A DNA stretch of 64,000 nucleotides from Chthoniobacterales bacterium. Lineage in GTDB: Bacteria > Verrucomicrobiota > Verrucomicrobiia > Chthoniobacterales > UBA6821. The position numbers were made by a program, and so were the translations under genes. The first letter of the stretch is position 1. Each line of letters opens with the position of its first letter. Of this stretch, positions 10,055-61,829 are shown in pieces. The notes under the pieces are model-generated. The model was not told where the DNA came from. It searched no databases and saw nothing but the letters and a program-made list of their open reading frames with translations. The stretch is taken from assembly GCA_019747895.1 (NCBI GenBank), contig JAIEQF010000001.1, positions 1 through 64,000 of the forward strand, written 5' to 3'.

Positions 10055-11143
10055 TTATTCTGTAACCGCCCGTCGTAAGCGATCCATAATGGCGCAACCA
10101 ATCCCCTCCTCTGGGATAGGCTCTACAACAAGTGATGTTACATCGCTCTCATCCAGTCGCCGCAAAGCGCCATAAAGATTGGCGGCAGCTTCTTTGAGAT
10201 CACCGGAAGAGCTTAAAATCTCGATGGCACCAAATCCTTCTCGAGTTTGAGAGAAAGCAAGCAGGCCGATTTCTTTTGAAGGTGTTTGTAAAGAATCATG
10301 CCACGATAATTTTTTGCGTGGCGCATAATGACTTTTTAAAGATCCGGGTGCTTTGCCATGGATTGATTGGTTCATCACTTTTCCAAATGATGAGAGTTTT
10401 TCTGCCGTGATCGGTCCAGGTCGTAAAATTTGTAATAAAAGACCTTCTTCCAAACTCGCTGATAGAGATGCAGTGGAAGGAGCCTCCGGCGCACAGCGGC
10501 TGAGTGTATAGTTAATACTCGATGACGCGAGCACCGGAGCGACACCGCAATGCGCTCTATCAGTAGAGTTTCGAAGAAGGTCTTCATGAGGCCAGACAAT
10601 CGTTGACTCCAGACCATGATAGCACGGGCCGCCGTCGACGATGAGTAGAATTCTCCCATCGAGCTCTTCGTGGACATCAGCAGCCGTTGTCGGACTGATG
10701 CGTCCAAAACGATTGGCGCTAGGAGCAGCGAGTGGTAAATCAAGTTGCTGTAAAATTTTTCTAAAAACCGGATGAGCTGGAACACGCACAGCCACCGTTT
10801 CCAAACCGGCAGTGACTAAATCAGGAATCGTAGTAGCTCGCGGCAGGAGCAGCGTCAAAGGGCCAGGCCAAAAGGCTTCTGCAAGCTGTTCTACGAGCTT
10901 TTTACATTCAGGCGTCAAGCTAACAACCCGATCGAGCCAAGAAACATCGAGGAGATGGACAATCAATGGATCAGAGAGCGGTCGCTGCTTGGCTTCAAAA
11001 ATAGAGGCGACGGCTTTGGAAGAAAAAGCATTTCCTGCGAGGCCATAAACCGTCTCGGTCGGAAGGGCCACAACTTCTTCTTTTTTTAAAAGAGCAACAG
11101 CAGCAGTGATGCCTGGCTCTGCTGGTAGCAACAATGTTTTCAT
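10055..11143 (-). CDS. tsaC: Threonylcarbamoyl-AMP synthase (Sua5/YwlC type) with in-frame insertion
   Basis: The 362-aa enzyme forms threonylcarbamoyl-AMP for the t6A37 tRNA modification, acting with TsaD encoded at 19004-20026. The YrdC domain is clear ([55 protein letters not shown]). A linker and a Sua5-type C-terminal domain starting near [12 protein letters not shown] follow. Between GLESTIV and [11 protein letters not shown], which are nearly adjacent in normal family members, lie about 47 extra residues (roughly 188-235). They are encoded by a palindromic repeat element on the opposite strand (10441-10582). The frame is intact and no catalytic motif is lost, so the protein is probably functional. 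Its ATG overlaps the end of purE by 4 bp. Confidence 0.93.
10441..10582 (+). repeat. In-frame palindromic element (core II), copy in tsaC
   Basis: The 142-bp element has matching inverted ends GACCTTCTTCCAAACTC and GAGTTTCGAAGAAGGTC. It shares its interior with the copies at 15447-15589 and 57382-57525 (GGCGCACAGC, ACGCGAGCACCGGAGCGAC, CAGTAGAG). The internal hairpin GAGTGTAT-agtta-ATACTC differs from the other copies at both arms, preserving pairing. Relative to its host gene it is inverted, so tsaC is read through the complementary strand ([22 protein letters not shown]). No stop codon results. Confidence 0.9.
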
Positions 11144-14833: not shown

Positions 14834-15754
14834 ATGCCTCATCCCCGAAAAAAAGTCATTGCTGCCAATTGGAAAATGAATCTCACTTCTAGTGAGGTGA
14901 AGCCTTATCTGGAAACATTGCTTCTAGAAACTCAACAGGTCGAAGGAATCGATATCGTTTTGATTCCTTCTTTTACCTCGATTCCTAAAGCTTCGGAGCT
15001 TTTAGAAAAAACACCAAAGGTACGTCTAGGTGCTCAAAATTTTTCCGCTCATGATAAAGGAGCCTTTACCGGTGAGGTCTCCGCTAGAATGCTTCGCGAT
15101 CTTTTTGTTCGCTATATTCTTGTAGGCCATAGTGAGCGACGTCAGCTCTTTGGTGAAACAGATCAGATCGTTCATGAGAAACTTCTTGTAGCTCATCGCA
15201 ATGAATTTCGTCCGATCCTCTGTGTTGGAGAGACTTTGGAAGAACGTAAAGCAGGAAAAGCAAAGCAGGTGTTAGAAAATCAACTAAAAGTGGCCCTGGC
15301 CGACTTATCTGTTGAAGACCTTGCTGATACGATTATTGCTTATGAGCCTGTCTGGGCCATTGGAACAGGTTGCACCGCCACGACAGAACAAGCGAGCGAG
15401 ATGCATCATTTTATTAGGGAAATGATCAAGGATCTCTCAAGCAAAGGGCCTCTTTCAAAACTCGCTGCTGGTGATGAGAGGCAAGGAATCGACGGCGCAC
15501 AGCAACTGAGTGTACAAGAGGTACTCAATGGCGCGAGCACCGGCGTGACGCAGCCTATCGCGTCAGCAGTAGAGTTTGGCAAGAGGTCCAAGGAAGTTGC
15601 TGCTAAAATTCGATTGATATATGGTGGTAGTGTCACGCCGGCCAATGCGTGCGAGCTTTTAAAATCTCCCGATATCGATGGTGCCCTCGTTGGTGGTGCT
15701 AGTCTTGATCCACGCGCTTTTGCTGAGATTGTGAAAGCAGCGGCGACAGCCTAA
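14834..15754 (+). CDS. tpiA: Triosephosphate isomerase with in-frame insertion
   Basis: The 306-aa enzyme interconverts dihydroxyacetone phosphate and glyceraldehyde 3-phosphate. Catalytic motifs are complete: NWKMN (Lys14), VGHSERR (His) and AYEPVWAIGTG (Glu), with the phosphate loops YGGSV and GALVGGASL. Typical TIM is about 250 aa. The excess is one block at roughly residues 205-252 between HHFIREMIKDLSS and KEVAAKIRLIYGGSV, encoded by a palindromic element (15447-15589). The site is in a surface helix-loop before the YGGS strand, so activity is plausibly retained. It is last of the gap-pgk-tpiA run. Confidence 0.95.
   Translation: MPHPRKKVIAANWKMNLTSSEVKPYLETLLLETQQVEGIDIVLIPSFTSIPKASELLEKTPKVRLGAQNFSAHDKGAFTGEVSARMLRDLFVRYILVGHSERRQLFGETDQIVHEKLLVAHRNEFRPILCVGETLEERKAGKAKQVLENQLKVALADLSVEDLADTIIAYEPVWAIGTGCTATTEQASEMHHFIREMIKDLSSKGPLSKLAAGDERQGIDGAQQLSVQEVLNGASTGVTQPIASAVEFGKRSKEVAAKIRLIYGGSVTPANACELLKSPDIDGALVGGASLDPRAFAEIVKAAATA
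15447..15589 (+). repeat. In-frame palindromic element (core II), copy in tpiA
   Basis: The element is about 143 bp with ends CCTCTTTCAAAACTC and GAGTTTGGCAAGAGG, extended by CTGCTG/CAGCAG inside. It contains the conserved GGCGCACAGC, the hairpin GAGTGTAC-aagag-GTACTC (15508-15526), GGCGCGAGCACCGG, and a TGACGC/GCGTCA inverted pair near its right end. It is in the same orientation and reading frame relative to its host gene as the copy at 57382-57525, giving the shared peptide pattern PLSKxAAGD, LSVQEVLxGASTG, ASAVEFGKR. Confidence 0.9.
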
Positions 15755-21695: not shown

Positions 21696-21831
21696 TTAAC
21701 CACAAAGTAATAAAAAAAGAGAAGAAGAGAATAGCCACAAAAGAACACAAAGAACACAAAGAGAAAGATTTTTTGTGTGTTCTTTGTGTTCTTTTGTGGC
21801 TATTTCTTTTTTAAAATTCTTTGTGGTTAAC
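21696..21831. repeat. Nested CACAAAG palindrome
   Basis: Two nested inverted pairs fill the nadC-hemB spacer. The outer pair is TTAACCACAAAG with CTTTGTGGTTAA. The inner pair is ATAGCCACAAAAGAACAC plus further AACACAAAG units with the exact inverse. There is no gene inside. Confidence 0.8.
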
Positions 21832-22835: not shown

Positions 22836-22967
22836 TTAGCCACAAAGAACACAGAAAAATAAGAAAATGGCCACAAAAGAACACAAAGAAAAAAATTATC
22901 GATTTAAAAATAGATTCAATTTTATAAAAATCTTTTTTTGTGCTCTTTGTGTTCTTTTGTGGCTATT
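22836..22967. repeat. CACAAAG palindrome
   Basis: TTAGCCACAAAGAACACAG and ATGGCCACAAAAGAACACAA precede an AT-rich centre. TTGTGCTCTTTGTGTTCTTT, continued by TGTGGCTA, closes it. It occupies the hemB-glmS spacer. Confidence 0.8.
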
Positions 22968-22974
22968 TTTTTAA

Positions 22975-24825
22975 TTACTCAACGGTCACACTCTTAGCCA
23001 GGTTGCGCGGCTTGTCCACATCGCATCCACGTGCCACGGCTATGTGATAAGCGAAGAGTTGCAATGGGATGACTGATAAAATAGGAGTTAAGTAGTCAGG
23101 GGCTTTTGGAATTAAAATCAGATCATTGCAGATTTGTTCTAACTCTTCAGAGTGACCTTCTGTACCAATAGCAAGTACTGGACCGCTGCGAGCTCGGACT
23201 TCTTGAATGCTGCTTAAGTTTTTGGTGTAAACTCCATCATGCGGTGCAATAAAAACAGAAGGCGTCTCTTCATTAATGAGTGCAATGACACCATGCTTTA
23301 GTTCTGCACTCGGATGCCCACTGGCCGCGATGTAACTGATCTCTTTGAGCTTGAGTGCTGCTTCCAGAGCGATGGGATAATTAAATTGTCGTCCCATGAA
23401 AAGCATCACAGAAGATTTAGCATAACGTTGAGCAATCTTCTCAATCGTTTTATCTAATTTTAATGTAGCTGCAATTTTTTCAGGAAGTGCTTCCAATTCA
23501 TGAATGATTTGACTTCCTTGCGTGCTAGAGAGATTCCGAATACGTCCTAGCAAGAGTGAGATTAAGGTCAACACCATCACCTGAGAAGTAAAGCTCTTCG
23601 TTGCTGCCACTCCAATTTCGGCACCAGCATGCATGTAGACACCACCGTTACTCTCACGAGCAATCGTGCTGGCAACATTATTACAAATTCCTAGGGTTCG
23701 ATGTCCCTTGCGTTGGCTTTCGCGCATGGCAGCCAGCGTATCGGCCGTCTCGCCACTCTGACTCAAAGCAAAGACGAGCGTGTCTTTGGTCATCGGTAAA
23801 TTGCGATAACGAAATTCGCTAGCAAATTCACATTCGGTCGGAATTTGTGCTAAGGATTCAATAAGATATTCTCCCACCATCGCTGCGTGCATGGCCGTTC
23901 CACAACCGGTAAGAACAATGCGTTCGATGGAACGTAATTCTGCATTCGACATCTCTAAGCCGCCCAGCTTAGCAGTAGCCTCGTCAATGGAAAGGCGGCC
24001 GCGCATGGCTTCTTGGACAGTACGGGTCTGTTCAAAAATTTCTTTGATCATGTAATGAGGGTATTCGCCCTTGTCGCTCTCTTGAAGAAGGTCCTCAACG
24101 GTTGTCACATTGTAGTGTGCTCCATTTCCCTCGAGCGTAGAAATGGTAAAGGTTTCTGCTGAGAGCGAAACGATTTCGTTGTCTTTGAGATAAACAACAT
24201 TTTTTGTATGAGCTACAATGGCACTCGCATCACTTGCCAGAAAATTTTCCCCTTCCCCAATCCCAAGAACTAACGGGCTTCCGCGGCGAGCGCCAATAAT
24301 CACACCAGGAAGGTCTTCATGGACCAGAGCAATCCCATAAGTTCCTTTTGCTAGGTGTAACGCTGCACGAACAGCAATGATGAGATTCTCTTCTGTTTTC
24401 TCAGTAGCAAGGTCGAATTCACGCCCAATTAAATGCGTGAGTACCTCGGTGTCTGTTTCCGAATGAAAAACATGCCCCTCTTCTTTTAATTGAGTTCGTA
24501 GCTTGGCATAATTTTCAATCACGCCATTGTGAACTAAGGCTAATTTTCCAGAAGCATCCAAATGAGGATGAGCATTAGCTACGGTTACTTTTCCATGAGT
24601 TGCCCAACGAGTATGACTGATGCCGATATGTCCACCCAGCGGCTGTTCTCTTACGAGTTTGCGCAAATGATCAATACGACCTAACGATTTTCGAAGTGAA
24701 AGTTTTCCATTTTCAATCGTTGCCATTCCAGCAGAATCATAGCCGCGATATTCCAATCGGCTTAATCCTTCTAAAAGAATAGGTACAGCTTCCTTCGGTC
24801 CAACATATCCAACAATTCCACACAT
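22975..24825 (-). CDS. glmS: Glucosamine-fructose-6-phosphate aminotransferase (isomerising)
   Basis: The 616-aa enzyme makes glucosamine 6-phosphate from fructose 6-phosphate and glutamine, the entry step to UDP-GlcNAc. The N-terminal MCGIVGYVG supplies the Ntn nucleophile Cys2. HTRWATHG and the glutamine-binding region follow. Two SIS domains carry CGTAMHAAM, ALSQSGETADTLAAM and ASGHPSAELKHGVIALI, and the end DKPRNLAKSVTVE is canonical. No glmS ribozyme is evident: the leader is a short CCTGTAA-type repeat. Confidence 0.97.
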   Translation of the reverse strand: MCGIVGYVGPKEAVPILLEGLSRLEYRGYDSAGMATIENGKLSLRKSLGRIDHLRKLVREQPLGGHIGISHTRWATHGKVTVANAHPHLDASGKLALVHNGVIENYAKLRTQLKEEGHVFHSETDTEVLTHLIGREFDLATEKTEENLIIAVRAALHLAKGTYGIALVHEDLPGVIIGARRGSPLVLGIGEGENFLASDASAIVAHTKNVVYLKDNEIVSLSAETFTISTLEGNGAHYNVTTVEDLLQESDKGEYPHYMIKEIFEQTRTVQEAMRGRLSIDEATAKLGGLEMSNAELRSIERIVLTGCGTAMHAAMVGEYLIESLAQIPTECEFASEFRYRNLPMTKDTLVFALSQSGETADTLAAMRESQRKGHRTLGICNNVASTIARESNGGVYMHAGAEIGVAATKSFTSQVMVLTLISLLLGRIRNLSSTQGSQIIHELEALPEKIAATLKLDKTIEKIAQRYAKSSVMLFMGRQFNYPIALEAALKLKEISYIAASGHPSAELKHGVIALINEETPSVFIAPHDGVYTKNLSSIQEVRARSGPVLAIGTEGHSEELEQICNDLILIPKAPDYLTPILSVIPLQLFAYHIAVARGCDVDKPRNLAKSVTVE

Positions 24826-29675: not shown

Positions 29676-30119
29676 TTATTTTTTTGCCCACTTAATAAAG
29701 GCTTCAGGGCCTCCCGCGAGATAGTTTGAACTCTTCAACTGCTTGCCTTGAGCATCTAGCAACAGCAGCGTTGGATATCCTTGGATATTATATTTCGTTT
29801 GCAGATCACTATTTTGTTTTTTAAGAGACTCTGATTGTTCTGATAATTTTTTTCCTTGAGGAAAATCAACAAGAACCAGGACTAAATTCTTTTCGGCATA
29901 ATCTTGAAATGCCTTTTGAGCAAAGACCTCTTGATCTAGCTTGATGCACCAGGGACACCAATTGCTTCCTGTAAAATCAAGAAGAACTAATTTTTTTTCT
30001 TTCGAGGCTTTTTTGAGTGCAGCTGGATAATCAGTCGTCCAGAGATCAGCAGCAGAAAGCGATACTGCGAGGAGAGCTAATGTTACAAGAAATGCAAAAA
30101 GACGTTTGGTTGTTCTCAT
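29676..30119 (-). CDS. Exported thioredoxin-like protein
   Basis: The 147-aa protein has an N-terminal signal sequence (LFAFLVTLALLAVSLSAA) and a thioredoxin fold. The redox motif is TGSNWCPWCIKLDQEVF (WCPWC), and the cis-Pro strand YNIQGYPTLLLLDAQGKQL follows. It belongs to the DUF255/thioredoxin_7-like group common in PVC bacteria and likely acts in periplasmic thiol chemistry. DsbD at 33146-35260 could be its electron donor (inference). Confidence 0.88.
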   Translation of the reverse strand: MRTTKRLFAFLVTLALLAVSLSAADLWTTDYPAALKKASKEKKLVLLDFTGSNWCPWCIKLDQEVFAQKAFQDYAEKNLVLVLVDFPQGKKLSEQSESLKKQNSDLQTKYNIQGYPTLLLLDAQGKQLKSSNYLAGGPEAFIKWAKK

Positions 30120-30167
30120 GTTGCTGTTTTACGATGTGACAGTAGTGATTGCAACGAATTTCTTTTA

Positions 30168-30308
30168 GAGGGTGTCTTGAAAAAGGCTAAAATAGCGCAT
30201 TGCGGCGTCACTCCGGTGCTCGCGTCCTCGAGTATCACTTATACACTGCGGGTCTGCGTACCTCGTTCCTGGCACTGCATCAATTTTATTCATTTTCAAG
30301 ACACCCTC
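30168..30308 (-). mobile_element. MITE-like element D: core II interior with IS5-like termini
   Basis: The 141-bp element has perfect inverted repeats GAGGGTGTCTTGAAAA flanked by TTA on both sides, a 3-bp target duplication as in several IS5-family groups. Its interior, read on the minus strand, matches the gene-borne core II copies: CGCAGTGTATAAGTGATACT, then ACGCGAGCACCGGAGTGAC and GCCGCAATGCGCT. The left duplication lies downstream of the thioredoxin gene's promoter side. The right TTA is the stop codon of the holin-like gene. Confidence 0.87.
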
Positions 30309-30788
30309 TTAGACCTTTTTCTCTTCGTTGGAAGAATTAATGCTACGAGTTCCAATCACCTTCGCACGTGCCTGCTTGACAGCAGGAGTTTCTTTCTTAA
30401 CCAAGGCAGGGCTAAAAAAAGAAATTGCACTTACTCCCCAATTGATCAAATTAATTAAAATTGCTCCCCAAAATGCTGTAGAAAAACGATCCACTTGAAA
30501 AGAGGGAAGGATTTTAGCAACCAGATAAAGTAATCCGGCATTCAGAAAGACATTGAAAAAACCGATTCTCTCTACAAAAAGTTTCACTTGAGTCGTGATG
30601 ACAAGCGTATAGCAGACTCTGCTCAAGAAACCAAAAAGAAGAGCGGCCTCCAATAACGTTGTTATAGAATCATAGGTAAATCCCCTCTTCAACAAAACCG
30701 CTCCCAGCATGGCAAGAGAGAGGATCAAACAGCGCTGAAAAAAATTCAGCCATGATACTGAAGAAGGAAAATACTCAGGGTGTTTCAT
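30309..30788 (-). CDS. Phage-holin-4-like (YvlD family) membrane protein
   Basis: The 159-aa protein has four hydrophobic segments. The block FLNAGLLYLVAKILPSF, then FWGAILINLINWGVSAI, is typical of the YvlD/holin superfamily IV proteins (PF04020-like), which are membrane proteins of unclear function rather than true lysis proteins in most bacteria. The charged C-terminal tail ends exactly at the TTA flanking element D, so the stop codon may have been created or preserved by the insertion. The tail may be shorter or longer than in the ancestral gene. Confidence 0.75.
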   Translation of the reverse strand: MKHPEYFPSSVSWLNFFQRCLILSLAMLGAVLLKRGFTYDSITTLLEAALLFGFLSRVCYTLVITTQVKLFVERIGFFNVFLNAGLLYLVAKILPSFQVDRFSTAFWGAILINLINWGVSAISFFSPALVKKETPAVKQARAKVIGTRSINSSNEEKKV

Positions 30789-32586: not shown

Positions 32587-33145
32587 GGACTACGCCACTT
32601 ATATTTCTAATCAAATTGAATGGAAGCAAAAACTCGAAGACGAAAGCAAAATCAAAAAATAATTTTTTATATATAGTCAAATTACTTAGAAATTACAGGG
32701 AAGAACGCAGGAATTTTTAGAAAAGGCCAGGCCGAAGACCGAGCGCTATCTAAACGATAACGTGACGGGATGAGAACGCAGTCTTTTCCTAAAAAGGACA
32801 AGTCAGTTGCTTGTAAGTTCTAAGTAATTTGACTATAATGAACTGGCACCAAAATTAACAAATTACGGAACCGACTCCTCGACGCCACCTTTTGACCCCT
32901 TTTCAATCTTTCAAGGTTCAAGTAGAAAATTTTTAAGCATACCTTCCAAGAAAAACGCTTTATTTGAGCTACAATGGGCCTCTGTTAGGTGGGGTGCTGT
33001 GGTCATAGCACCCGATTGAGAAGCCACTACTTTCATCAAATCATTCAGATAATCAATCTGTTGCTAAGAATATTTTCTTCCTTCTGTATCAGTCTCTCAG
33101 GGATTTTCTCTGTAGAAAACTTCAAATTTTTCCTCATTCCGGCAG
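32587..33145. other. 559-bp spacer: element B1 and a strong hairpin
   Basis: This region holds no credible gene. It contains element B1 (32672-32837). Near 32976-33020 CTCTGTTAGGTGGGGTGCT pairs with AGCACCC. The GTTAGGTG-plus-hairpin start recalls the M-box (Mg2+) riboswitch, but later M-box elements are not recognisable and no plus-strand gene follows. Confidence 0.4.
32672..32837 (-). mobile_element. MITE-like element B1 (core I)
   Basis: The 166-bp element has inverted repeats TATAGTCAAATTACTTAGAA and TTCTAAGTAATTTGACTATA and a TA target. The interior carries core I in minus orientation: hairpin CGTTATC-GTTTA-GATAGCG, TCTTCGGCCT and CTGCGTTCTCA. It differs from B2 (35859-36024) at two positions only, so movement was recent. 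No transposase is present. Confidence 0.92.
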
Positions 33146-35695: not shown

Positions 35696-36019
35696 AGGCT
35701 TCAGAGAATGGGCACAAAGAGCCCAAAGAAATCAAAGAAACAAGAAAAATAGCCACAAAAGAACGCACGAAACTCAAAAAAAATTTGTGCTCTTTGAGGC
35801 TAAATCTTTTTTCTCTCAGCTATTCATAAAATTAATTCTTATGCCCCCGCTGAACAGCTATAGTCAAATTACTTAGAAATTACAGGGAAGAACGCAGGAA
35901 TTTTTAGAAAAGGCCAGGTCGAAGACCGAGCGCTATCTAAACGATAACATGACGGGATGAGAACGCAGTCTTTTCCTAAAAAGGACAAGTCAGTTGCTTG
36001 TAAGTTCTAAGTAATTTGA
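35696..36019. other. Spacer with CACAAAG repeats and element B2
   Basis: ATGGGCACAAAGAGCCCAAAG and AATAGCCACAAAAGAACGCA precede a degraded inverse arm (TTTGTGCTCTTTGAGGCTA) at 35710-35802. Element B2 then runs to 36024. There is no gene. Confidence 0.6.
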
Positions 36020-36024
36020 CTATA
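35859..36024 (-). mobile_element. MITE-like element B2 (core I)
   Basis: The second 166-bp copy of family B has the same TATAGTCAAATTACTTAGAA termini. It differs from B1 at two positions (a C/T change in the AGGCCGAAGA block and a G/A change next to GATAAC). Its right end lies directly before the coding sequence of the FGE-fragment gene and contributes an in-frame TGA, removing that gene's original start. Confidence 0.92.
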
Positions 36025-41595: not shown

Positions 41596-42162
41596 TTATT
41601 TTGTGTTCTTTGTGCTCCGCTTTAGCGGCTTTGTGATCTTTGTAGTGAATTTCAGCTTCTTTGAATCATTCCAGAGCGACTCCAGATCGTAAATCTCACG
41701 CAACTCTTGATGAAAAATATGAACAATAATGTTTCCAAAATCGATGACGATCCATCGGCTTCCTGGATAAGCATCATCAGCATGTGGAGGAATACCCTTC
41801 TCCGTCCGCATGCGATCTCGAATGGAACTTGCAACCGCTTTAATCTGTGGTTCTGAAGAGGCAGAGACAATGACAAAAAAATCGGCAAAGGAAGAGATCC
41901 CTCGCAAATCCAAGATGATAGGATCCTCTGCTTTTTTATCCAGAGCTGCCTCAACGCAGAACCGAGCTAGCGCCTCTTCAGCATCTATGTCTTTAGGAGT
42001 TGTTGCTTTTTTGACAACTGCTTTTCTAGGAGTTGCTTTTTTAACAACCGTTTCTTTAGCAGTCGCTTTTTTAACAACCGTTTCTTTAGCAGTCGCTTTT
42101 TTAACAACTGTTTTTTTAGCAGTCGCTTTTTTGGTAGAGCTTTTTTGTTTTAATGTAGTCAT
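41596..42162 (-). CDS. rsfS: Ribosomal silencing factor RsfS with lysine-rich N-terminal repeats
   Basis: The RsfS domain (residues ~65-170) binds uL14 on the 50S subunit and blocks subunit joining in starvation. Its blocks are ILDLRGISSFADFFVIVSAS, IVIDFGNIIVHIFHQELREI and YDLESLW. It is preceded by ~60 residues of 10-mer repeats (KKATAKETVV) encoded by 30-bp tandem DNA repeats, giving a highly basic tail like that of histone-H1-like proteins. The C-terminus (KFTTKITKPLKRSTKNTK) is read from a CACAAAG-type repeat. The start overlaps nadD by 47 bp. Confidence 0.92.
   Translation of the reverse strand: MTTLKQKSSTKKATAKKTVVKKATAKETVVKKATAKETVVKKATPRKAVVKKATTPKDIDAEEALARFCVEAALDKKAEDPIILDLRGISSFADFFVIVSASSEPQIKAVASSIRDRMRTEKGIPPHADDAYPGSRWIVIDFGNIIVHIFHQELREIYDLESLWNDSKKLKFTTKITKPLKRSTKNTK
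42005..42140. repeat. 30-bp tandem repeat inside rsfS
   Basis: About four copies of a 30-bp unit (GCTTTTTTAACAACCGTTTC followed by TTTAGCAGTC) encode the KKATAKETVV decapeptides. Copy number may vary between strains by slippage. Confidence 0.85.
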
Positions 42163-55970: not shown

Positions 55971-57230
55971 ATGTCCAAAGATCTTTTTAAAAAATGCCGC
56001 GAGTATCATGACTCGAAAGATGCACGTGCTCAAGGATTCTATCCTTACTTTCGACGTATTGATGACAGCGAAGGAAATCATGTAATCTGCGAAGGAAAGC
56101 AGAAAATCATGATAGGTTCTAATAACTACTTGGGGCTTGCTCAAGATCCTCGCGTTATCGAGGCTGCCTGCGAAGCGACACGTCGATTTGGTGCTGGCTG
56201 CACCGGTTCTCGTTTGCTCAATGGAACGATTGCCCTGCATGAACAGCTTGAGGCTGCTTTGGCTGATTTTTTACAACGAGAATCAGTTCTTCTTTTTTCA
56301 ACAGGATTTTTTGCCAATCAGGGAGCTCTGACAGCATTGACCGAAGCAGAAGATGCCATCCTTTGTGATCGTGAAAACCACGCGAGCATCATTGAGGGCT
56401 GTCAAACTTCTGTAGCACGCCTGGTCCCCTATCGTCACAATTCGGCTGCAGCTCTTCGCAACCGTTTAAAAAGACTTCCTGAGGATGCAGGAAAATTGGT
56501 TGTGATGGATGGTGTTTTTAGCATGTCCGGAGATATTGCTGACCTACCTTCCATGATTGAAGTTAGCAAGGAATACGGTGGTGTCATGTATGTCGACGAA
56601 GCCCATTCTCTCGGAGTCTTGGGACCACAAGGTCGCGGAACGGTACATCATTTTGGCGTCAATGATGACGTTCCTATCGTTATGGGCACTTTTTCCAAAT
56701 CCTTAGGATCGATGGGAGGCTTTATTGCAGGCTCTCACGAGATGATCGAATTTCTGAAACATAAAGCACGTTGTCTGATTTTCACAGCGGCTCTTGCCCC
56801 TGCTGTTGTTGGAGGAGTTTTGAAAGCCCTTGAAATCATGCGTAGCGAACCAGAGCGCATTGATCAGCTCTGGAAAAACACGCGCAAGATGCATGAAGGA
56901 TTTAAATCGCTTGGGTTTAATATCGGCTCTACCCAAACACCGATTGTTCCGATCTTGATTGGCAGCGAGGCAAGGGCTTTTGCTTTCGCGCAACGCCTCT
57001 TTGAAGAAGGTATTTTTGCTACCCCAGCAATTTATCCAGCTGTTCGTTATGGTGAAGCCATTGTGCGGACCAGCTTCATGTCAACGCACACAGAAAAAGA
57101 TCTCGATTTCATTTTAGAAATCTTTGCAAAATTAGCCCGTGAACTAGGAACCTTCGATGATCCCGTCTACACACAACCAGGCCGCCGACGCAACATTTTC
57201 GATTTTGCCTTGCAAGAGCAAGACCGATAG
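55971..57230 (+). CDS. spt: Serine palmitoyltransferase-type alpha-oxoamine synthase
   Basis: This 419-aa PLP enzyme of the alpha-oxoamine synthase family condenses an amino acid with an acyl thioester. The N-terminal GFYPYFRRIDDSEGNHVICE and MIGSNNYLGLAQDPRVIEAA are the pattern of bacterial serine palmitoyltransferases, rather than BioF or KBL. GAGCTGSRLLNGT, DRENHASIIEGCQ, DEAHSLGVLG and the PLP-lysine motif MGTFSKSLGSMGG (~241) follow. The next two genes encode a GNAT acyltransferase and an epimerase-type reductase, as in bacterial ceramide synthesis. BioF activity cannot be excluded by eye. Confidence 0.85.
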   Translation: MSKDLFKKCREYHDSKDARAQGFYPYFRRIDDSEGNHVICEGKQKIMIGSNNYLGLAQDPRVIEAACEATRRFGAGCTGSRLLNGTIALHEQLEAALADFLQRESVLLFSTGFFANQGALTALTEAEDAILCDRENHASIIEGCQTSVARLVPYRHNSAAALRNRLKRLPEDAGKLVVMDGVFSMSGDIADLPSMIEVSKEYGGVMYVDEAHSLGVLGPQGRGTVHHFGVNDDVPIVMGTFSKSLGSMGGFIAGSHEMIEFLKHKARCLIFTAALAPAVVGGVLKALEIMRSEPERIDQLWKNTRKMHEGFKSLGFNIGSTQTPIVPILIGSEARAFAFAQRLFEEGIFATPAIYPAVRYGEAIVRTSFMSTHTEKDLDFILEIFAKLARELGTFDDPVYTQPGRRRNIFDFALQEQDR

Positions 57231-58458
57231 ACAACTTTTTGAAACAATCCCTGAGCTCCTGCATGCCAAGGAGCCTCATTTCACCCCTCCTTTTCCGGGA
57301 AGTGTTGTCAAACTGATTGAACCTGAAGGAGCTTTTTGCAAACAGCATGGTTCTATTGTGCCACTGATTATCTTTCGTCATGAACCTCTTTCAAAATTCG
57401 CTGCTGGCGATACAGTGCTAGGAGCTTCCGGCGCACAGCGACTGAGTGTACAAGAGGTACTCGATGGCGCGAGCACCGGAGCGACGACGCAATGTGCGTC
57501 AGCAGTAGAGTTTGGGAAGAGGTTCAATGGAAAGCCGGTAGGACGAATCGCAGCCATCATCAACCGCTCTCACAATAGTTACAACAAGGATCGCGTTGGA
57601 TTTTTTGGTTTCTTTGATTTCATCAATGATCCAGCTGTTGCTAGAGCCTTAGTAGAAGCTGCTGCCAAGATCGTCCAACAAGAAGGAATGACCTCCTTAC
57701 GCGGTCCCTACAATCCTTCGATCAATGATGATTGCGGCGTGTTGACGGAAGGATTTCATGCTCCTTCATTTGTTTCCATGCCATGGAACCCTCCCTATTA
57801 CGAATCGCTTTACAAGCAAGCAGGCCTCGAGTCCGTGAGAAAGCTCTATGCGTGGATGATTCCTTTGCAACGAGAGACACCAGAACGTGTGAATAAAATC
57901 GTTCAACGCTTGTACAAGCGTGCCAAAGTAACCATTCGGACATTGGATATGAAAAATTTAAAAAAGGAGATGGAGATCATTCATCGCCTTTACAACAGAA
58001 CGCTTGATCGCAACTGGGGTTTTTATCCGATAGCACTTGATGATCTCCTCCACGCTGCAGACGATTTAAAAGCCATTGCTGATCCAGGATTGATTCTCTT
58101 TGCTTGTGCAGAAGGCCGAGAAGTGGCTTTCAGCCTCTCTCTTCCTAATGTTAATGAGCTCTTCCATGCAGCGCGAGGCCGCAAAGGAATTTTGCGTTTT
58201 CTAGAAATGGCGTTGCGCATTCAATTTCAAAGACCAAAGGATGCCCGTCTGTGTGTCCTTGGTGTTGATCCTGAATACCGAGACAAGGGTTTGAGTGCGC
58301 TTCTTTTTTATGAAGTATTTGTCCGAAAGAAGGCCAAGTACGAACGCTCCGAGGTCTCTTGGGTGGAAGCGAATAACACCGAAATTCTCGAAGGAGCCGA
58401 ACTGATGGGCGGCCATCGCGATCGGACTTATCAAATTTTTGAGAAAAATTTAGTTTAA
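57157..58458 (+). CDS. bcerS: GNAT-fold acyltransferase, probable bacterial ceramide synthase, with in-frame insertion
   Basis: The 433-aa protein overlaps spt by 74 bp. It starts with FSILPCKSKTDRQLFETIPE and AKEPHFTPPF. The GNAT-like core reads KPVGRIAAIINRSHN, FFGFFDFINDPAVARALVEA, LRGPYNPSINDDCGVLTEGF and ending blocks LCVLGVDPEYRDKGLSALL with VEANNTEILEGAELMGG. The position between spt and a reductase matches bCerS of Caulobacter-type ceramide pathways (inference by context). Between FRHE and NGKPVGRIAA lie ~47 extra residues (76-122) encoded by a palindromic element (57382-57525). Without it the protein has the usual ~385 aa. Confidence 0.75.
   Translation: MIPSTHNQAADATFSILPCKSKTDRQLFETIPELLHAKEPHFTPPFPGSVVKLIEPEGAFCKQHGSIVPLIIFRHEPLSKFAAGDTVLGASGAQRLSVQEVLDGASTGATTQCASAVEFGKRFNGKPVGRIAAIINRSHNSYNKDRVGFFGFFDFINDPAVARALVEAAAKIVQQEGMTSLRGPYNPSINDDCGVLTEGFHAPSFVSMPWNPPYYESLYKQAGLESVRKLYAWMIPLQRETPERVNKIVQRLYKRAKVTIRTLDMKNLKKEMEIIHRLYNRTLDRNWGFYPIALDDLLHAADDLKAIADPGLILFACAEGREVAFSLSLPNVNELFHAARGRKGILRFLEMALRIQFQRPKDARLCVLGVDPEYRDKGLSALLFYEVFVRKKAKYERSEVSWVEANNTEILEGAELMGGHRDRTYQIFEKNLV
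57382..57525 (+). repeat. In-frame palindromic element (core II), copy in the GNAT gene
   Basis: The 144-bp element (48 codons) has inverted ends GAACCTCTTTCAAAATTC and GAGTTTGGGAAGAGGTTC. The internal hairpin GAGTGTAC-aagag-GTACTC is at 57444-57462, GGCGCGAGCACCGGAGCGAC follows, and a GACGCA-atg-TGCGTC hairpin lies on the right. The orientation and reading frame are the same as in tpiA. Confidence 0.9.
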
Positions 58459-58501
58459 TCCACTACAAATAGCCGCAAAGAATTTTTAAAGAAGAAGAAG
58501 A

Positions 58502-58578
58502 AATAGCCACAAAAGAACACAAAGAGCACAAAGAAAATAATATCCTTTTTGTGCTCTTTGTGTTCTTTTGTGGCTATT
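58502..58578. repeat. CACAAAG palindrome
   Basis: AATAGCCACAAAAGAACACA with AAGAGCACAAAG is followed, after ~16 bp, by its inverse CTTTGTGTTCTTTTGTGGCT. The hairpin ends 20 bp before the GTG of the reductase gene. Confidence 0.85.
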
Positions 58579-58597
58579 CTTTTTTACTTATTATCCT

Positions 58598-61587: not shown

Positions 61588-61829
61588 TACCACTTCCATT
61601 AAATAATGAGACTATAGGACGCAGGAGTTTTGGTTTCTAGCAAGGCAGAAGAGTGAGGCGCTATGCCAAGCATAACGTAAGCTCTGACAACGAAGCTAGG
61701 GAGCAAAACATACATGCGTCGTGGCAGCCGCTGGATCGACTGCCGCCAGGCAGCCCGCAAGGGCGAGCCTCGCGGGCGCGAGCGAGTTACACCAAGTCAC
61801 AATAGTCCGATTATTTAATGAAAGTGGTA
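61588..61829 (-). mobile_element. MITE-like element C (core I, third terminus type)
   Basis: The 242-bp element has imperfect inverted repeats TACCACTTCCATTAAATAAT and ATTATTTAATGAAAGTGGTA with a TA target. Core I lies in the left half, in minus orientation: hairpin CGTTATGC-TTG-GCATAGCG, and CTTCTGCCTTGC in the place of CTTCGGCCTkGC. An additional GC-rich palindrome (CCCGCAAGGGCGAG, CTCGCGGGC) is on the right and is absent from A and B. It lies between the porin and its terminator. Confidence 0.85.

Follow-up and report, generated by a model that had tools for sequence, protein, structure and literature searches.

A mosaic IS5-type MITE in a genus-specific family of hairpin elements with a branch that enters genes

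Element D and its insertion site

Element D, a 141-bp IS5-type MITE, occupies positions 30168–30308 (plus strand) of the window, by which we mean the whole 64,000-nt stretch of DNA analysed here. D is intergenic, unlike the class C relatives found within genes (see below), and is flanked by two minus-strand genes, one thioredoxin-like (29676–30119) and the other encoding a Phage_holin_4_2-like small membrane protein (30309–30788). Read on the plus strand, D consists of a left arm with an IS5-type TIR (30168–30194), a core, here core II (30195–30281), and a right arm with the TIR inverted (30282–30308). Support for the arms comes from arm identity, from the match of the first 15 nt of the left arm to an IS end in the sister genome G002, and from the exact TIR match on the right; support for the core comes from core identities, which place it nearest to class B, the elements with TAGAGC ends. 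The 16-mer GAGGGTGTCTTGAAAA is present without mismatch at 30168–30183 on the plus strand and at 30293–30308 on the minus strand, forming the inverted termini of D. Copies of TTA lie at 30165–30167 and 30309–30311, and the right copy doubles as the stop codon (TAA on the minus strand) of ORF 30309–30788. No ORF of 100 aa is found within the 141 bp, and a transposase gene of its own is absent from D.

The history of the site is given by a sister species represented in a Lac Pavin Verrucomicrobiia assembly (locus L089), in which the orthologous site lacks D. There the sequence reads ...GAATTTCTTTTAGACC... with a single TTA, and the occupied site reads ...GAATTTCTTTTA, the 141 bp of D, and TTAGACC.... 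On either side of D, the flanking sequence matches one unbroken stretch of the sister genome at about 85% identity. Thus, the TTA duplication around D is real, and D is a clean 141-bp insertion plus a 3-bp duplication that arose after the two lineages split. These comparisons bear out an earlier, sequence-only reading of the locus, which had credited D with perfect termini and TTA duplications. Two further full copies are present in D's own genome (G000), one identical (C29:10927–11067) and one 98% identical (C51:79118–79258), indicating that D was recently active.

The hairpin family, its ends and its gene-borne copies

D is a member of a roughly 140-bp hairpin family that is specific to one genus of Verrucomicrobiota; most of its relatives are hairpins of about 144 bp. 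A covariance model built on 31 class C copies found 125 matches in the own genome and 110, 53, 20, 13 and 7 in five others of the genus, for a total of 328 with all six genomes positive, and a search with stricter filters in 71 other genomes, from the family and the order, gave no match (0/71). By their ends, the core copies divide into three main classes. Class A is characterised by ends of the sequence GAGGGTGTCTTGAAA and by a duplication of 3 bp, the duplications at other IS5-ended copies being TCA, TAA and TTA. Class B, the TAGAGC-ended class, has TAGAGCATTTTCAC/TAGAGCGTTTTAAA ends with TA at both. In class C, which includes the gene-borne copies, the ends vary between copies and match within one copy: of the outer 14 nt, 10.5 positions agree within copies, versus 7.5 when partners are permuted. 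The prior claim that the core occurs with two or more kinds of termini therefore stands, the number being at least three. Class C copies outside long frames have end subfamilies of their own, mostly 142–144 bp and distinct from the in-gene 144-bp copies; CTAGTGCATTGTAAATTC (L342, L343, L350) and AAACTGCCTCATAAATTC (L329, L356), on contigs of the own genome, are examples.

The gene-borne ends had been described as unrelated to those of D. By direct identity this is correct, the arms of D and of class C agreeing at only about 46%. However, when the IS end was compared with a profile of 140 class C ends, none of 20,000 shuffles fitted as well, the fit lying mainly in AAATTC at positions 13–18, and intermediate ends exist, namely GAGCGTGTCCCAAAA (L114), GAGCGTGTTCAAATTC (L072) and AGAGCGTGTCTGAAATTC (L355). 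Because the IS end fits this profile, the gene-borne ends are probably diverged IS5-type ends rather than ends of another kind, and they have a 3-bp duplication likewise.

Three 144-bp class C copies lie in the window, all on the minus strand: at 10440–10583, in frame in a Sua5/TsaC (threonylcarbamoyl-AMP synthase) gene; at 15446–15589, in frame in the triosephosphate isomerase gene, where five sister genomes have an empty site; and at 57382–57525, in ORF 57157–58458. An in-ORF copy was defined as one in a frame of 180 codons or more, with no fewer than 15 codons to either side of it, and 33 of the 77 own copies read in context qualified. Length was divisible by three in 32 of these 33, with 30 being exactly 144 bp, versus 16 of the 44 others, among which 143 was the commonest length. 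One reading frame was used per orientation, in 18/18 and 14/15 copies. The hosts in this lake bacterium, essential genes among them, include triosephosphate isomerase, Sua5, UvrA, a radical-SAM methylthiotransferase, homoserine dehydrogenase, RsmE, TatD and a TPP enzyme. Comparison with empty sites in sister species gave insertions of 147 nt, i.e., 144 plus a 3-bp duplication, which was AAA/AAG in triosephosphate isomerase and TTT/TTT in RsmE; identical 3-nt flanks were found at 10 of 43 copies, where 2.2 were expected and the permutation maximum was 7. The triosephosphate isomerase insert lies between the residues aligned to 204 and 208 of PDB 7rmn, a position between two conserved segments. 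Variants of 201, 222 and 225 bp include a second palindrome and are still multiples of three. Hence the 144-bp branch enters genes without destroying them, since an added length of 144 + 3 nt leaves the reading frame unshifted and in each orientation one frame contains no stop. We also considered that the outer arms of the gene-borne copies were made from the target by inverted duplication; this was rejected, the empty sites lacking those sequences.

A second palindromic element, of about 80 bp, occurs both alone, at 61708–61788 of the window and elsewhere, and nested within core II elements, the further loci noted for it being L271, L283, L268, L258, L261, L011 and L019. Where the hosts are gene-borne, it is present in multiples of three.

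Mosaic structure of D and rival explanations

That the interior of D is the interior of the gene-borne copies had been claimed from the sequence alone, with a shuffled-sequence alignment named in advance as the control. Local alignment of the core (30195–30281) with the copies at 10440–10583, 15446–15589 and 57382–57525 gave scores of 81, 53 and 66, and the best scores from 2000 dinucleotide shuffles were 30, 28 and 30, respectively. The similarity thus persists above the control, and chance is ruled out as its source. The arms of D tell of other relatives than its core does. D's arms are 91–93% identical to those of the IS5-ended MITEs L004, L090, L095 and L104, whose cores are only 76–79% identical to that of D. 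Class B elements show the opposite pattern: identity to D reaches 93% in the core and is no more than 57% in the arms, about the level of random sequence. Informative sites divided arm from core at the junctions, with Fisher p values from 1e-3 to 1e-6; a one-base offset in the extracted left arms of some parents blurs this contrast and does not create it.

Trees of the arms and of the cores conflict. Each of the three end classes occupies one side of a branch in the arm tree, with support of 100/100 for B, 94/97 for C and only 78/0 for A. The core tree places D, with its sister copy, among the TAGAGC-ended class B copies. Three changes of end-class label are needed in the arm tree, versus nine in the core tree. 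A single clade of the class A (IS5-ended) cores was rejected, at an AU p of only 0.04, and D plus class B as one clade was not rejected (p 0.25). The trees contain only two distinct D-type copies, and because the alignments are short (56 and 88 columns) we regard the tree conflict as good, not overwhelming, evidence. From these sequence comparisons D is shown, to the same degree, to be a mosaic, with IS5-type arms round a palindromic core of the TAGAGC-ended class. The simplest route to the mosaic would be that homologous elements recombined or underwent gene conversion with one another, presumably in the direction of a class B core entering IS5-type arms.

We consider it quite probable that D is, as a whole, best explained as a mosaic IS5-type MITE in a genus-specific hairpin family that has a 144-bp gene-entering branch. 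The sequence-only reading had proposed that an IS5-type MITE took up a structured cargo, and the parts of this that describe D as an IS5-type MITE, with a core known from at least three kinds of ends, are retained. Capture of an independent cargo, such as a structured RNA or a protein-coding palindrome, would account for that variety of ends; we judge it very unlikely nevertheless, given that the IS5-ended MITEs of the sister species (L090, L095, L104) already bear their own diverged version of the same core, that the gene-borne ends are IS5-like, and that an Rfam search gave no family match. Since IS5-ended relatives carry a homologous core already, it looks as if one core took the place of another in D, in an exchange among homologous elements, which is a better description than cargo capture: ends and cores were swapped between related families, and foreign cargo was not taken up. 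An alternative without any recombination is that ends switched by drift, all classes descending from one IS5-type MITE and D keeping the old ends and the old core. The intermediate ends in L114, L072 and L355 and the fit of the IS end to the class C profile favour drift, and drift probably explains the broader diversity of ends, though not D. For D it is unlikely, in view of arms close to those of IS5-ended copies with much less similar cores, a core close to that of class B elements with near-random arms, the break of informative sites at the arm/core junctions, and the disagreement of the two trees. The genomes compared are draft metagenome assemblies, the own genome being in 55 contigs, and a repeat family of more than 100 copies might be misjoined in such an assembly. 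An artefact of this sort is scarcely credible, given the continuous sister stretch to which the flanks of D align around a clean 141 + 3 bp insertion, and given that unrelated genes contain in-frame inserts whose empty sites are clean.

A further rival to the mosaic-MITE explanation concerns the paired arms, whose matched changes might reflect selection for an RNA hairpin in transcripts, acting in regulation or mRNA stability, rather than the needs of transposition. The predicted folds are very stable (z about -4 to -9; -3.9 to -8.6), and the two-sided covariation is strong: among 31 class C copies, 31 of 53 pairs had two-sided changes, which exceeded 500 shuffles (0/500) and all slid versions. 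In the outer stem, however, G-T wobble steps were rare, with 3 cells versus 71 two-sided Watson-Crick changes, and A-C mismatches numbered 19, where related, non-independent copies inflate the counts and A-C on one strand equals G-U on the other. Further, copies fixed at the same site in different species had 16 one-sided changes and 1 two-sided change, i.e., 16 of 17 changed pairs altered on one arm, in a small sample of non-independent copies. Selection on an RNA hairpin is, on this evidence, decidedly unlikely. Copies at different sites vary by paired changes on both arms, which would fit selection for matched ends at the moving stage, and the mostly one-sided change at shared sites would be decay; our inference is that movement requires matched arms, which decay later. 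The same has been reported for Rickettsia elements, in work cited in PMC6649704. Conversion of one arm by the other, keeping the arms matched in place, is not supported by these same-site changes, small as the sample is. As for known structured RNA families, D had no Rfam match at E 1, and tRNAs were the only matches in the window.

Candidate transposase and comparison with known elements

The earlier suggestion to search for IS5-family transposases with the ends of D was followed, and the search was productive. Contig C20 of the sister genome G002 carries an IS whose left end is GAGGGTGTCTTGAAATTCAAGG and whose two ORFs match NF033580 (IS5 family transposase); the first ORF also matches PF13340 and PF01609, the NCBIfam name is transpos_IS5_3, and the two ORFs are apparently read by frameshift. 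The C20 copy is without a right end, and further IS ends, right ends included, are found on other G002 contigs. A relic of the same IS, interrupted by a MITE, lies on contig C25 of the own genome. Both copies are incomplete, and no contig yielded an intact IS together with both its ends. Over its first 15 nt the G002 IS is the same as the ends of D, and identity of D to the G002 IS ends and the C25 relic extends over 15–16 nt. Because of this match, the insertion of D at its present site was most likely mobilised by an IS5-family (IS5_3) transposase acting on these ends. Searches by transposase families and by end patterns turned up no IS for the ends of class B or of class C. IS630-type transposases do occur, but the end beside them, TATAGTCAAATTAC, is that of another MITE family.

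Several known systems resemble D or its relatives. Like the IS5-family MITEs associated with IS5_3/DUF4096-type transposases, D is short, has no transposase gene and has recent near-identical copies; its perfect TIRs are the first 15 nt of an IS5-family element, and the 3-bp duplication is TTA, TCA or TAA. D thus shows the features of IS5-family MITEs that were tested, namely shared TIRs, a short duplication and no transposase gene. It differs from them in being a mosaic, with an interior that is a palindromic core common to other classes rather than a deleted IS. The class C relatives are like the Rickettsia palindromic elements, or RPEs (PMC10969869, PMC2229807), in being hairpins of about 100–150 bp, in frame in unrelated conserved genes, with an open frame, a conserved peptide and apparently intact host genes. 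In contrast to RPEs, the host belongs to Verrucomicrobiota and not to Rickettsiales, D itself is intergenic, and here both the duplication, of 3 bp, and a likely transposase family are identifiable, the RPE target duplication being listed as unknown (PMC2229807). The insert peptides had no match, to RPE or otherwise, among the models of Pfam and of NCBIfam, which contains RPE models. The gene-borne relatives function like RPEs, which they resemble; we do not file them as RPEs because no sequence kinship is shown and the host phylum differs. The Correia/NEMIS elements of Neisseria (PMC2229807) likewise have two length forms, one open-framed and fused in genes and one intergenic, but differ in ends and interior; here the forms are of 144 bp versus mostly 143 bp, with several end types. 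The coding palindromes of nematomorph mitochondria (PMC6649704) are also hairpins within protein-coding genes, but their arms stay perfect in place, whereas here fixed copies decay on one arm. In the part of the open-access literature covered, no account of such elements in Verrucomicrobiota was found.

On balance, we lean towards the broader view that protein-coding palindromic transposons form a system peculiar to a Verrucomicrobiota genus, independent of that of Rickettsia and driven by IS5-family transposases, in which ends and cores are exchangeable modules and proteins keep gaining inserts of about 49 residues. If so, a core that is harmless in genes could pass from one transposase to another, as exchangeable ends and cores imply. 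Discussion of protein-coding palindromes has centred on Rickettsia, and the reviews cited here name no target duplication and no enzyme that mobilises them (PMC2229807, PMC10969869). The same life style would now be seen in a second phylum, where the empty sites are clean, the duplication measures 3 bp, a candidate transposase can be named and a mosaic links intergenic and other forms, so that protein-inserting palindromes can be tied to a likely transposase. Movement of coding palindromes becomes testable with one transposase and two 140-bp DNAs, and nature supplies, across sister species, housekeeping enzymes that carry a 49-residue insert in one species and lack it at the corresponding site in another.

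Other repeats were observed alongside these elements. A MITE family with TATAGTCAAATTACTTAGAA ends is present in the window at 32672–32837 and 35859–36024. IS630-type (DDE_3) transposase genes adjoin TATAGTCAAATTACTTAGAA ends on contigs C18 and C29 of the own genome, and because of this adjacency an IS630-type IS is probably the cognate of these MITEs. A class A end lies within an IS630-type transposase gene that is split there (G002:C24:6180–6708; L180, L183). An intergenic palindrome family with inverted repeats CACAAAGAACACAAAGA / TCTTTGTGTTCTTTTGTGGC occurs in the window at 21714–21811, 22857–22976, 58495–58592 and other positions. A coding tandem repeat at 41972–42151 has a 30-bp period made of 15-bp half units, GTTGCTTTTTTAACAACC, and is reminiscent of lysine/alanine-rich histone H1-like proteins.
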